From: an uncultured Acidobacteriota bacterium
GTDB taxonomy: Bacteria > Acidobacteriota > Vicinamibacteria > Vicinamibacterales > CAVVIG01
NCBI GenBank assembly: GCA_902825985.1
Contig: CADEDC010000010.1
Location: 1 to 64,000 of the forward strand
Length of the DNA: 64,000 bases
Direction of reading: 5' to 3'
The position numbers and the translations under genes are program-made. The notes beneath the pieces are model-generated. The model was given only the letters and a program-made list of their open reading frames with translations, had not been told where the DNA came from and did no database searches. Each line of letters opens with the position of its first letter. Position 1 is the stretch's first letter. Shown piece by piece: positions 36,233 through 44,063 of the stretch.

Positions 36233-38008
36233 ATGCCAAGCGCCAACGACCTCATCTCACGCTGGCCCGGACTGGACATCGCGGTTCGCCGGGACCGGCT
36301 CGCTCACGGATTCCAGCGATCGCCGGGGCGCCTCGGCGCCTTCCTGCCGCCGTTCGAGGCGGCAGCCCAGCGCGCGGTGTCGGGGCTCTGGAACAGGGAC
36401 CCGGCGACGTGGTCCGCCGATCCGGAGGTCCAGGCCAGGATCGCGAACCGCCTCGGCTGGCTGAGTTCGCCGGCCCTGATGGCCGACTCGCTCGAGCGGC
36501 TGCACACCTTCGCCGCCGGCGTCCGGGCCGACGGCTACACCGACGCGGTGCTGCTCGGCATGGGCGGATCGAGCCTCGCCCCCGAGGTGCTGCGCTCGGT
36601 CGTCGGGATCGGCCCCGGCGGGCTGCAACTCCACATGATCGACTCGACCGATCCGGCGGCCGTGCTGAGCGTCGACACCGACGTCACGAAGACGATCTAC
36701 GTCTTCGCCAGCAAGTCGGGGACGACCATCGAACCGAACTCCCTCTACGGCTATTTCCGCCAGGGGCTCGAGCACGCCGGCATCAAGGCGTGGGCGAAGC
36801 AGTTCGTCGCGATTACCGACGACGGCACCGAGCTGGCGTTCAACGCACGGCGCCGGCAGTTCCGCGAGGTCTTCATCAACCCGACCGACATCGGCGGCCG
36901 CTACTCGGCGCTGTCCTTTTTCGGGCTGGTGCCGGCCGCACTGATGGGCCAGGACCTCGAGGCGCTGGTCGGCTACGCCCTGGCCATGCTCGCGTCGACC
37001 GAGCCGGCGGCGGTGCACGTCGAACAGCACAGCGCGTTTGCCCTCGGCGCCGCGATGGCCGCCGGGGCACGGCACGGCCAGGACAAGCTGACGCTGCTCG
37101 TGCCGCCGGCCCTCGAATCGTTCGGACTCTGGGTCGAACAGCTGGTCGCCGAGAGCACCGGCAAGCAGGGTGTCGGGGTCGTGCCGATCGCCGGCGAGAC
37201 GCCGGGGGCGGCCGACGTCTACGGGCCCGATCGGGCGTTCGTGCGGATGCGGCTCGGCGGCGACGCAGACGCGACGCTGGACCCGCTGGTCGCGTCGCTC
37301 ATCCAGCGCCAGGCCGCGGTCCACGAATGGACCATGCCGGAACCGGGTGCGCTCGGGGCCGAGTTCGTGCGCTGGGAACTCGCCACGGCGGTCGCCGGCG
37401 CGCTGCTCGCGATCAATCCGTTCGACGAGCCGAACGTGTCGCAGGCGAAGGAAGCCACCCGCGTGTTGCTGTCGCAGTTCCGGCAGGACGGGCAGCTGCC
37501 GATTCCGCCGGCCCAGCGCACGACCGCCGACGGCGTCGGACTGACGCTCAGCAGTGCGGCACGCCGCGCGCTCGACGGTCACGAGCCCAGCGCCATTCTC
37601 GCGCTGCTGCAACCGGGCGACTACTTCGGCCTGCTCGCCTACCTCGGACCGCATCGCGGACTCGCCGAGGCGCTGCACCGCCTGCGGATGGGCGTCCGCG
37701 ACCGGACGCGGCTGGCGACGATGTTCGGCTACGGTCCACGCTATCTGCACTCGACCGGTCAGCTGCACAAGGGCGGGGCGAACAACGGCGTGTTCGTGCT
37801 CGTCTCGGCGCTGCCGCGTGTCGACTTCCCGATCCCGGGCGAGGCCTTCTCGTTCGGCACCCTCGAACTGGCGCAGGCGATCGGCGATTTCCAGTCACTC
37901 GACGGCACCGGTCGCCGGGCCCTCCACATCCACCTGCCCGAACCGATTCCGGAACTGCTCGAGTCGACTCTGGCCACCCTGCTCCCTCACATCCCCGGCG
38001 TCAGGTAA
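36233..38008 (+). CDS. pgi: Glucose-6-phosphate isomerase
   Basis: Phosphoglucose isomerase interconverts glucose-6-phosphate and fructose-6-phosphate. The 591-residue protein shows the sugar-phosphate isomerase blocks LGMGGSSLAPEVLRS, YVFASKSGTTIEPNS, the ALGAAMAAGARHGQDKLT segment and FDEPNVSQAKEATR, and the C-terminal LHKGGANNGVFVLV. The sequence style is that of the isomerase half of the fused transaldolase-isomerase found in some phyla, but here no transaldolase precedes it. It leads the pgi-gnd-zwf unit; gnd starts 9 bp after its stop. Confidence 0.92.
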   Translation: MPSANDLISRWPGLDIAVRRDRLAHGFQRSPGRLGAFLPPFEAAAQRAVSGLWNRDPATWSADPEVQARIANRLGWLSSPALMADSLERLHTFAAGVRADGYTDAVLLGMGGSSLAPEVLRSVVGIGPGGLQLHMIDSTDPAAVLSVDTDVTKTIYVFASKSGTTIEPNSLYGYFRQGLEHAGIKAWAKQFVAITDDGTELAFNARRRQFREVFINPTDIGGRYSALSFFGLVPAALMGQDLEALVGYALAMLASTEPAAVHVEQHSAFALGAAMAAGARHGQDKLTLLVPPALESFGLWVEQLVAESTGKQGVGVVPIAGETPGAADVYGPDRAFVRMRLGGDADATLDPLVASLIQRQAAVHEWTMPEPGALGAEFVRWELATAVAGALLAINPFDEPNVSQAKEATRVLLSQFRQDGQLPIPPAQRTTADGVGLTLSSAARRALDGHEPSAILALLQPGDYFGLLAYLGPHRGLAEALHRLRMGVRDRTRLATMFGYGPRYLHSTGQLHKGGANNGVFVLVSALPRVDFPIPGEAFSFGTLELAQAIGDFQSLDGTGRRALHIHLPEPIPELLESTLATLLPHIPGVR

Positions 38009-38017
38009 GGAGTCGGC

Positions 38018-38935
38018 ATGCAGCTCGGGTTCGTCGGTCTCGGTAAGATGGGGCTGAACATGGTCACGCGGCTGGCGCGCGCCGGTCACGCCATCGTGGC
38101 CTACGACCTCAACGCCGAGGCGCTGGCGCGTGCCGCGGCGGCTGGTGTCACGGCCGTCGACGGACTGGATCAGCTGGTCGCCGCCCTGGACCCGCCGCGC
38201 GCCGTGTGGGTGATGGTGCCGGCCGGCGACGCCACCGAGTCGACGATCGCCGCGCTGGGCGATCGGCTCGGCGCCGACGACGTGGTCATCGACGGCGGCA
38301 ACACCCACTTCCCCGACGATCTGCGGCGTGCCGCCGCGCTGGCGGCCCGCGGCGTGCACCACGTCGACGCCGGGACGAGCGGCGGCGTGTGGGGGCTCAG
38401 CGACGGCTACTGTCTGATGGTCGGCGGCCCGGCGGCGGTGTGCAGGCGCCTGGAGCCGATCTTCCACGCGCTCGCACCGCCGGACGGCTACCTGCGCGTC
38501 GGCGACCATGGCGCCGGACACTACGTGAAGATGATCCACAACGGCATCGAGTACGGGCTCATGCAGGCCTATGCCGAGGGGTTCGAGCTGATGCACGCGA
38601 GCCCCTACGATCTGGAGCTGGATCGGGTCGCCGCGGTCTGGATGCGCGGCAGCGTCGTCCGATCGTGGCTCCTCGAGCTGACGGCGCGGGCACTCGCGAC
38701 CGATCCCGGACTCGAGGCGCTCAGCGGTCGCGTCGACGACTCGGGTGAGGGCCGCTGGACCCTGGAGGAAGCGATCGACCGGGCGGTGCCGATGCCGGCA
38801 CTCGCGGCGGCGCTGTTCACCCGCTTCCGCTCGCGGGCCGACAATCCGTTCGCGGAACGGCTGCTCGCCGCGCTTCGCCAGCAGTTCGGCGGGCACGCGG
38901 TCACGGCGGCAGGCGACCCGCCGGTGCGGCCATGA
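38018..38935 (+). CDS. gnd: 6-phosphogluconate dehydrogenase, short (GndA/YqeC) type
   Basis: The 305-residue enzyme oxidatively decarboxylates 6-phosphogluconate to ribulose-5-phosphate. It has the N-terminal dinucleotide motif FVGLGKMGLNM, DGGNTHFPDD, the signature VDAGTSGGVWGL and the catalytic KMIHNGIEYGLMQAYAEGF. The length marks it as the short, usually tetrameric form, about 170 residues shorter than E. coli Gnd, and some members prefer NAD. AGGAG precedes the ATG. Its stop overlaps the zwf start by 4 nt (ATGA). Confidence 0.94.
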   Translation: MQLGFVGLGKMGLNMVTRLARAGHAIVAYDLNAEALARAAAAGVTAVDGLDQLVAALDPPRAVWVMVPAGDATESTIAALGDRLGADDVVIDGGNTHFPDDLRRAAALAARGVHHVDAGTSGGVWGLSDGYCLMVGGPAAVCRRLEPIFHALAPPDGYLRVGDHGAGHYVKMIHNGIEYGLMQAYAEGFELMHASPYDLELDRVAAVWMRGSVVRSWLLELTARALATDPGLEALSGRVDDSGEGRWTLEEAIDRAVPMPALAAALFTRFRSRADNPFAERLLAALRQQFGGHAVTAAGDPPVRP

Positions 38936-40452
38936 CGATTGTGATTTTCGGCGGCGCCGGCGACCTGGCGCAGCGCAAGCTGCTGCCGGCCCTCTACAAC
39001 CTGCACGTCGATGGTCTGCTGCCGCCGACCTGGGCGATCGTCGGTACCGGCCGCAAGGACCTGACCGACGATGGCTACCGGCAGTTCGCCCGCGACGGGA
39101 TCGAGCGCCACTCGCGGCGGCCGATCGACGCGGCGACCTGGGCGCAGTTCGCCAGCGGCCTCTTCTTCGTCAACATCGACATCGCCGAGCCGGCGGGTGG
39201 CCGGCCGCTGGCATCCCTCGGCGCCCGGCTCGACATCATCGAGCACGAGCGTGGCGAGCCGGGCGACCGCATCTACTATCTCGCGGTGCCGCCGTCGCTG
39301 TTCATCCCGGTGGTCCAGCAGCTGGCGGCGGCCCGGTTCGTCGCCCCCTCCCCGGGTGCGGGTGCGCCGTACGCGCGCCTGGTGGTCGAGAAGCCGATCG
39401 GCCACGACCTGCACAGCGCGCTCGCGATCACCGATGCGGTCGCCGCCGTCTTCGACGAACGGCAGGTCTTCCGCATCGACCACTATCTCGGCAAGGAAAC
39501 CGTCCAGAACATCCTGGTGCTGCGGTTTGCGAACAGCATCTTCGAGCCGCTGTTCAATCAGAAGTACGTCGATCACGTACAGATCACCGTCGCCGAGCAG
39601 GACGGCGTCGGCACGCGCGCCGGCTACTACGACGGCGCCGGCGCCCTGCGCGACATGGTGCAGAACCATCTGCTGCAGCTGTTGACGCTGGTCGCGATGG
39701 AACCGCCGCACGCCCTGACCGCCGACGTCGTCCGCGACGAGAAGCTGCAGGTGCTGCAGGCCCTGCGGCCGATCGCCGGATCGACCGTCGACGGCTGCAC
39801 GGTGCGCGGCCGGTATGCCGGCGGGCGCGTCGGCGATCGGGCGGTCGCCGGCTACCTCGCCGAACCCGGCGTGGCGCCCGATTCGCGGACCGAGACGTTC
39901 GTCGCGCTCAACGTCCGCGTCGACAACTGGCGGTGGGCAGGGGTGCCGTTCTATCTGCGCACCGGCAAGCGGCTGCCTCGCCGCTCCAGCGAGATCTCGG
40001 TGCACCTGAAGGCGGTGCCGCCGATCCTGTTCAACGCGCCGCCCGACGCGCCGCTCGGCCGCTGCGTCCACGAGAGTTCGCCGGCGCTCGCTGCCAACGT
40101 GCTCGCCATCCGCCTGCAGCCGGACGACGGCTTCTCGTTCTTCATCTCGTCGAAGATCCCCGGTCCGCAGGTGCGGGTCACCACGGTCGAGATGGACTTC
40201 GACTACAGCACGGCGTTCGGCGCCGCGTCTCCCGAAGCGTACGAGCGCCTGCTGCTCGACGTGATGGCCGGTGATGCCACACTCTTCATGCGGCGTGACA
40301 GCGTCGAGGCGTCGTGGCGTTTCGTCACGCCGATCCTCGATCGCTGGGCCGAGCAGTCGGCGCCGCTGCCGGAGTACGCGGCAGGCACGTGGGGACCGGC
40401 GGCCAGTGACGATCTGCTCCAGCGAAGCGGTCGGAGCTGGCGCAACCCCTGA
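38932..40452 (+). CDS. zwf: Glucose-6-phosphate 1-dehydrogenase
   Basis: Zwf makes 6-phosphogluconolactone and NAD(P)H from glucose-6-phosphate, the entry to the oxidative pentose-phosphate pathway. The 506-residue protein has the coenzyme motif GGAGDLAQRKLLPAL, VVEKPIGHDL, the active-site signature RIDHYLGKE and the GVPFYLRTGKRLPRR segment. It overlaps gnd by 4 nt. A 6-phosphogluconolactonase gene is not present in the unit. The large transcription activator follows 14 bp downstream. Confidence 0.96.
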   Translation: MTIVIFGGAGDLAQRKLLPALYNLHVDGLLPPTWAIVGTGRKDLTDDGYRQFARDGIERHSRRPIDAATWAQFASGLFFVNIDIAEPAGGRPLASLGARLDIIEHERGEPGDRIYYLAVPPSLFIPVVQQLAAARFVAPSPGAGAPYARLVVEKPIGHDLHSALAITDAVAAVFDERQVFRIDHYLGKETVQNILVLRFANSIFEPLFNQKYVDHVQITVAEQDGVGTRAGYYDGAGALRDMVQNHLLQLLTLVAMEPPHALTADVVRDEKLQVLQALRPIAGSTVDGCTVRGRYAGGRVGDRAVAGYLAEPGVAPDSRTETFVALNVRVDNWRWAGVPFYLRTGKRLPRRSSEISVHLKAVPPILFNAPPDAPLGRCVHESSPALAANVLAIRLQPDDGFSFFISSKIPGPQVRVTTVEMDFDYSTAFGAASPEAYERLLLDVMAGDATLFMRRDSVEASWRFVTPILDRWAEQSAPLPEYAAGTWGPAASDDLLQRSGRSWRNP

Positions 40453-40466: not shown

Positions 40467-43400
<2,934 letters not shown>

Positions 43401-43436
43401 CAGCGCCGAAAAAAGTCTGCCTCGGTCAGCTTCTTG

Positions 43437-43457
43437 ACTGGATACCGAGTATCCAGT
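43437..43457. promoter_or_regulatory. Palindromic operator-like site 1 (GGATAC/GTATCC)
   Basis: ACTGGATAC (43437-43445) and GTATCCAGT (43449-43457) are a perfect 9-bp inverted repeat with spacer CGA. It lies 37 bp after the activator gene and begins within a TTGACT that could act as a -35. It has the form of a dimeric repressor or activator site; the binding protein is unknown. Confidence 0.65.
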
Positions 43458-43469
43458 TCCGGCGAGCTT

Positions 43470-43486
43470 TGGATACCAAGTATCCA
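43470..43486. promoter_or_regulatory. Palindromic operator-like site 2 (GGATAC/GTATCC)
   Basis: TGGATAC (43470-43476) and GTATCCA (43480-43486) repeat the core of site 1 with a 3-nt spacer CAA. The centres of the two sites are 31 bp apart, about three helical turns, so both would face the same side of the DNA. A third half-site GGATAC lies at 43599-43604 within a GATACT -10-like box before the PilZ gene. Confidence 0.65.
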
Positions 43487-43523
43487 GCCTTCACAGACCG
43501 GTCGATTTGGACGAGAACACACT

Positions 43524-43555
43524 AATCGTCATGTAGGCAACGACTTGTGACGATT
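43524..43555. repeat. Second inverted repeat upstream of the PilZ gene
   Basis: AATCGTCA (43524-43531) and TGACGATT (43548-43555) form a perfect 8-bp inverted repeat around 16 nt. It is unrelated in sequence to the GGATAC palindromes and could be a second operator or a weak hairpin in a long leader. Confidence 0.5.
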
Positions 43556-43640
43556 CAGGCGACCGCGCCGGTGTGCAAATCCGGGCGGACCCGAACTTGG
43601 ATACTAAAGGGCAGCACGTTTCCCCTTCAGGAGTCTTTTC

Positions 43641-44063
43641 GTGATGCAGAGCCGAGTCGCCGAGCCGCCGTATCGTCCTGCCGACAGCAACCGTGCCGCC
43701 GCGCGGATTGACGTAGCCCTGCCCGCTCGCCTGATGTGGAAAGACCAGCGTGGCGCCACGCGCTTCGCCACCGTCATGACCCGTAACGTCAGCGAGTTCG
43801 GCGCCTATGTCGAGTGTCAGACGCCGGTCTCGCTGCCACTCTACCGCCTGGTGCAGTTCCAGCTCGAGAAGGACATCAACGACGGTCAGGACCTGCCGGC
43901 GTCGTTGAAGCAGGGGCGCCTCACCGCCGCCATCTATCGCGTGCAGCCGCCAGACGCCCGCGGTCGCGGCCAGGGTCTGGCGCTCCGCCTGATGATCGAG
44001 CCGAAGCGCCACGCCGCCGCCCCCGAGCATGTCGCCCCGGAGCGGATTCGCGCGAGCGCCTAG
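43641..44063 (+). CDS. PilZ-domain protein (c-di-GMP receptor candidate)
   Basis: The 140-residue protein is essentially one PilZ domain. The two c-di-GMP-binding motifs are intact: RAAAR (RxxxR) near residue 18 and NVSEFG (NxSxxG) near residue 49, followed by AYVECQTPV and the later GLALRLM strand. PilZ proteins relay cyclic-di-GMP to motility, pili or polysaccharide export. AGGAG lies 7 nt before the GTG; an ATG immediately follows and could be the start instead. The gene sits behind a 240-bp region full of palindromes. Confidence 0.82.
   Translation: MMQSRVAEPPYRPADSNRAAARIDVALPARLMWKDQRGATRFATVMTRNVSEFGAYVECQTPVSLPLYRLVQFQLEKDINDGQDLPASLKQGRLTAAIYRVQPPDARGRGQGLALRLMIEPKRHAAAPEHVAPERIRASA

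Follow-up and report, generated by a model that had tools for sequence, protein, structure and literature searches.

Two perfect palindromes of the form TGGATAC-N3-GTATCCA, located between the gene for a sigma-54 activator (bEBP) and a PilZ-type gene, are by comparative evidence real elements, shared across an order of Acidobacteria from soil. With a probability of about 0.85, they constitute a pair of UAS, i.e. an NtrC-like enhancer, through which the adjacent bEBP activates a single target, pilZ. The locus is thus proposed to represent a complete one-activator/one-target circuit in which a sigma-54 activator with TPR sensing is connected to a PilZ protein; the order concerned is present among the genomes studied here almost solely as metagenome assemblies.

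The palindrome pair and its conservation

The region 43437-43605 of the window (the whole stretch of DNA analysed, 64,000 nucleotides) harbours two perfect 17-bp copies of the palindrome, neither of which is assigned to a strand: UAS site 1 (43439..43455; TGGATACCGAGTATCCA) and UAS site 2 (43470..43486; TGGATACCAAGTATCCA). Both are exact matches located 31 bp apart centre to centre, as the original prediction had stated. At up to 3 mismatches, only these two sites match the palindrome in the 64-kb window (shuffles average 0.49). The whole genome (5,847,276 bp) contains no third copy at up to 1 mismatch and, at 2 mismatches, one copy, which corresponds to the control (chance) level. An 8-bp inverted repeat, AATCGTCA (43524-43531) and TGACGATT (43548-43555), is present between the elements as predicted from the letters, but is not kept in the sister genome (L026).

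Overall, 44 loci within the order displayed the palindrome pair upstream of a PilZ gene, normally directly after the gene for a TPR/sigma-54 activator. These loci were pooled from the bEBP loci of the family, eight loci of family f12 retrieved by an order-wide search, and 20 more regions, the majority of which stem from other families. Position and spacing of the sites are kept, the latter amounting to 31 bp in 39 loci, 30 bp in three, 32 bp in one and 24 bp in one. The summed mismatches of the best pair range from 0 to 8, compared to mostly 10-14 in shuffled regions (one value of 8 in 220), although counts over the 44 loci overstate the statistics because related sequences are not independent. 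Independent of such counts is the identical spacing observed across families whose remaining intergenic letters are almost entirely different; the array occurs at fixed spacing in at least six families of the order. The check proposed with the original prediction, i.e. a search of related genomes, therefore revealed the palindromes to be kept in orthologous intergenic regions, and the envisaged geometry of dimers on one DNA face is supported by the phasing of the two regulator sites, whose distance of 31 bp corresponds to three helical turns.

Among the 21 family loci with readable downstream DNA, 20 display the order bEBP, two dyads, promoter and pilZ, with dyads spaced by exactly 31 bp in 18 of them and by 30 and 32 bp in the remaining two. 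The exception, G009, carries a 2.6-kb insertion after the bEBP gene, with array and promoter intact before pilZ. Since the array stays with pilZ in this genome, it belongs to pilZ rather than to the 3' end of the bEBP gene. The original prediction had the array merely separate an activator gene from a pilZ gene; this description of the flanking genes is correct, but understates the role of the array, which is better regarded as the putative enhancer of pilZ itself.

The named relatives are mostly metagenome assemblies of Acidobacteria subdivision 6 ('gp6'), from which a placement of the present organism in Vicinamibacterales appears probable. Two records, L084 and L095 (VFZL01000001.1 and CALQBJ020000055.1), are titled 'Acidimicrobiia bacterium' and 'Bifidobacterium breve', yet carry the Acidobacteria locus and group within the genus or family of the window by genome search, so that their titles look mislabelled. 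Many family members, e.g., the family f1 loci L011-L014, L020 and L031, possess a direct repeat of TGCAC just after site 2, its two copies separated by about two helical turns, which is absent in the present genome.

A putative sigma-54-type promoter and its spacer

Downstream of the palindromes, a putative sigma-54-type -24/-12 promoter was recognized on the forward strand (43587..43600), composed of GG (43587-43588), N8, TTG (43597-43599) and a G at -12. The element GG-N8-TTG is present in 44/44 loci at 112-135 bp from the centre of site 2, with site 1 located about 31 bp farther from the -12 base, and falls within 118-126 bp from site 2 in 84% of the loci as compared to 0.9% of shuffles. 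This placement is, on sequence grounds, that of the -24/-12 geometry of a sigma-54 promoter, and the conserved paired dyads located upstream of it are helically phased (39/44 at 31 bp), as is characteristic of an enhancer. The element also accounts for the third half-site, which had been predicted to overlap a GATACT -10-like box: the half-site TGGATACT does exist (43598-43605), but it does not represent a third copy of the array in relatives, and is better read as TTGGATACT of the GG-N8-TTG element, i.e. as the putative -12 region. A search for -35/-10 hexamers of sigma-70 type at 16-18 bp yielded none within 43380-43700. A scan of the intergenic region for a conventional GG-N10-GC promoter gave just one candidate, at 43599, which was rejected since it is not conserved. 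With the transcription start expected at about 43611, the leader would be short and include a GGAG ribosome-binding site (43630..43633, forward strand; assigned from sequence).

While the GG at -24 is found in 44/44 loci, the GC expected at -12 (GG-N10-GC) is not: the G at -13 is conserved, the present genome reads GG-N10-GG, and the base at -12 across the 44 loci is A in 33, G in nine, and C and T in one each, i.e. different from C in 43/44. The C at -12 is not absolute, as illustrated by the pspA promoter of E. coli (TTGT). Its apparent consistent avoidance across an order is unusual, and this -12 element is the sole real oddity of the system, the enhancer itself being of a known kind. The strict conservation of a non-canonical -12 element raises the question of the need for the -12 cytosine or, alternatively, of a lineage-specific reading by sigma-54. 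The rpoN gene of the genome (PF00309 match) encodes a normal RpoN box (ARRTIAKYRE) and HTH.

The region between site 2 and the promoter (43487..43586; no strand assigned) represents a putative looping spacer, whose AT-rich part begins about 40 bp past site 2 and extends to about 80 bp. At a distance of about 35 bp from site 2, relatives often possess the IHF-like motif YAANNNNYTGATW, which occurs exactly in 8/44 loci (shuffles 0.15) and with up to 1 mismatch in 22/44 (shuffles 4.6); the exact motif is absent from the spacer of the present genome.

Activator, target and proposed mechanism

The bEBP (40467..43400, forward strand) comprises an N-terminal TPR region, an AAA+ domain with the GAFTGA motif present in the translation, and a C-terminal Fis-type HTH, and thus possesses both hallmarks of a sigma-54 activator, the AAA+ interaction domain with GAFTGA and the Fis-type HTH. 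Pfam matches were obtained to Sigma54_activat (PF00158; 1e-63), HTH_8 (PF02954; 7e-16; residues 929-968) and TPR; in NCBIfam, the AAA+/HTH half is nearest to NorR, NtrC and NifA, all of which score well below their cut-offs. Orthologues within the family are 62-82% identical. In the sister genome (L026 and L032; G025:C1:98006-100934), the bEBP match is split over two reading frames and the gene may therefore be frameshifted, or the assembly erroneous. Genes for pgi, 6-phosphogluconate dehydrogenase and zwf (36233-40452) precede the bEBP gene almost gaplessly on the same strand, an arrangement from which co-transcription of the bEBP gene with these sugar-phosphate genes appears possible. A paralogous bEBP group (L177, L180, L182, L189 and L191) has its own repeated sites of the CGGGTAG/GTTCCC type a few hundred bp downstream, adjoining a convergent small DNA-binding-like gene.

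The PilZ-type gene (43641..44063, forward strand; start GTG at 43641 or ATG at 43644) is the proposed sole target. Its own product has no Pfam match, seven out of 20 orthologues match Pfam PilZ (best 9e-4), and no PDB sequence was retrieved by the PilZ profile. An AlphaFold model based on 25 aligned proteins (mean pLDDT 75.6) retrieved 11 Foldseek matches at E<=0.001, all of them PilZ-domain proteins or cellulose synthases carrying such a domain, and the best PDB fold matches are PA0012, YcgR and BcsA. The model thus assigns the protein a PilZ beta-barrel fold. The c-di-GMP motifs RxxxR and [ND]xSxxG are present, with no variation at R17, R21, S50 and G53 among 25 sequences, and the protein is probably c-di-GMP-binding. 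Among 396 sampled genomes of the phylum, this PilZ family was found just within the order.

When the entire pair was searched for as a degenerate pattern, 18 of 27 family genomes matched, in one place each and always at the pilZ locus, while the reversed control pattern gave 0 matches. On this basis, pilZ is proposed to be the only detectable target of the array, with weak sites elsewhere being possible. Array and bEBP are largely inherited together. Array-less PilZ homologues (G030, G123, G140 and G148), some of which may not be orthologues because they are distant, belong to genomes in which a query with two thirds of the bEBP, counted from its N-terminus, retrieved no orthologue; PilZ and a full-length bEBP orthologue are both missing from three genomes (G003, G019 and G026), and the sites of G047, whose bEBP is the most diverged (47%), are just weak and differently spaced. 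Two fragmented assemblies complete this comparison: G045 has the bEBP and no PilZ match, and in G032 the bEBP is truncated by the contig end. The Fis domain of the adjacent activator is accordingly the best candidate binder of the palindromes, this putative role being proposed from adjacency and co-inheritance.

In the proposed mechanism, bEBP dimers would use their C-terminal HTH of Fis type to bind both palindromes, three turns apart on one face of the DNA, and would nucleate an AAA+ oligomer. Looping of the ~120-bp spacer, perhaps aided by an IHF/HU-like bending protein, would then allow the GAFTGA loops to reach RNA polymerase-sigma-54 on the promoter (43587-43600), whereupon transcription of pilZ would begin near 43611. 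Since pilZ is the only detectable target, the amount of a single PilZ-type protein would be adjusted to a signal perceived via the TPR region.

Other explanations of the palindromes were weighed against this enhancer. A dimeric regulator encoded elsewhere, e.g., a GntR- or TetR-like repressor, might bind them and control pilZ from a sigma-70 promoter, as many dimeric regulators fit perfect palindromes and the -12 element is non-canonical for sigma-54. However, array and bEBP are inherited together, the former being missing where the latter is missing, 43380-43700 contains no sigma-70 promoter, the placement of GG-N8-TTG is fixed in 44 loci, and the site centres lie over 110 bp upstream of the promoter, a distance too great for simple repression; control by such a regulator is therefore improbable. 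At the RNA level, the palindromes could serve as terminator of the bEBP transcript or as regulatory leader, each site being able to fold into a hairpin of 7-9 bp with a 3-nt loop just past the bEBP stop codon. The 616 arm pairs of 88 sites, however, comprise 138 broken and 46 G-T pairs, as compared to 8 compensatory changes, which is the pattern of DNA sites. Moreover, no T-run or terminator and no Rfam match were found, and in G009 the array is distant from the bEBP stop. An RNA element was rejected on the substitution pattern, G009 and the missing Rfam match, and is regarded as very improbable. Finally, a short motif might arise once by chance, but for chance palindromes, as well as for a functionless mobile or repeat element, the probability is practically negligible: the spacing is fixed over at least six families, no further copy exists in the genome, and the conservation of the array refutes this reading.

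Known systems and the -12 element in the order

The proposed enhancer closely resembles that of glnA, where NtrC acts from paired upstream sites by looping (PMC7408454) and where the E. coli NtrC box, TGCACCAnnnTGGTGCA, comprises 17 bp in a 7-3-7 layout (PMC8743547). Shared features are the paired 17-bp palindromes with 7-bp arms around 3 bp, about 90-140 bp upstream of the start, and an AAA+ bEBP with Fis-type HTH; looping to a sigma-54 promoter is proposed here by analogy (PMC8743547, PMC7408454). In contrast to the NtrC/glnA system, the array has different letters (TGGATAC/GTATCCA) and one target, the sensor is a TPR region instead of a receiver domain, and -12 reads TTGA/TTGG. In Clostridiales, the commonest pattern is a single-operon bEBP with multiple UAS at 100-250 bp from the promoter and adjoining the bEBP gene (PMC6615313). 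The locus is alike in that the bEBP gene adjoins its only target operon and multiple UAS lie at this distance, but the clostridial targets discussed are largely metabolic and their promoters were searched by the consensus TTGGCATNNNNNTTGCT, whereas a PilZ gene of Acidobacteriota would be controlled here (PMC6615313). With the PilZ c-di-GMP receptors PA0012, YcgR and BcsA, the target protein shares the fold predicted by AlphaFold/Foldseek and the motifs RxxxR and [ND]xSxxG; it differs in that its family is order-restricted, most members score below the Pfam threshold and ligand binding is predicted. Among the literature searched, no paper joins Acidobacteria, PilZ and sigma-54 in such a way.

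It is rather doubtful whether sigma-54 promoters of this order generally use TTGA instead of TTGC at -12. If they did, this would represent a lineage-wide shift, best documented at the pilZ promoter, of an element otherwise regarded as near-invariant. The pattern TTGGCAC-N5-TTGN is not enriched over the control (33 places among the matches listed), and GGCNCG-N4-TTGATA occurs in 29 places as compared to ~12 in the control, partly at the pilZ locus itself. GGCACG-N4-TTGNTA has A in 11, C in seven, and T and G in one each at N, TTGATA being common in the background. The P-II upstream regions contain no recognisable sigma-54 promoter. In two genera, a strikingly conserved GGCACGCCTCTTGATATCAnCTGAACCG precedes a small zinc-ribbon-like gene (L151 and L174, ~position 1501) and may represent a further sigma-54-type promoter bearing TTGA at -12. 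In four genomes (L148, L153, L170 and L173, ~position 1501), GGCACG-N4-TTGATAC is located directly before a gene which, judged by eye, is TamB/AsmA-like.
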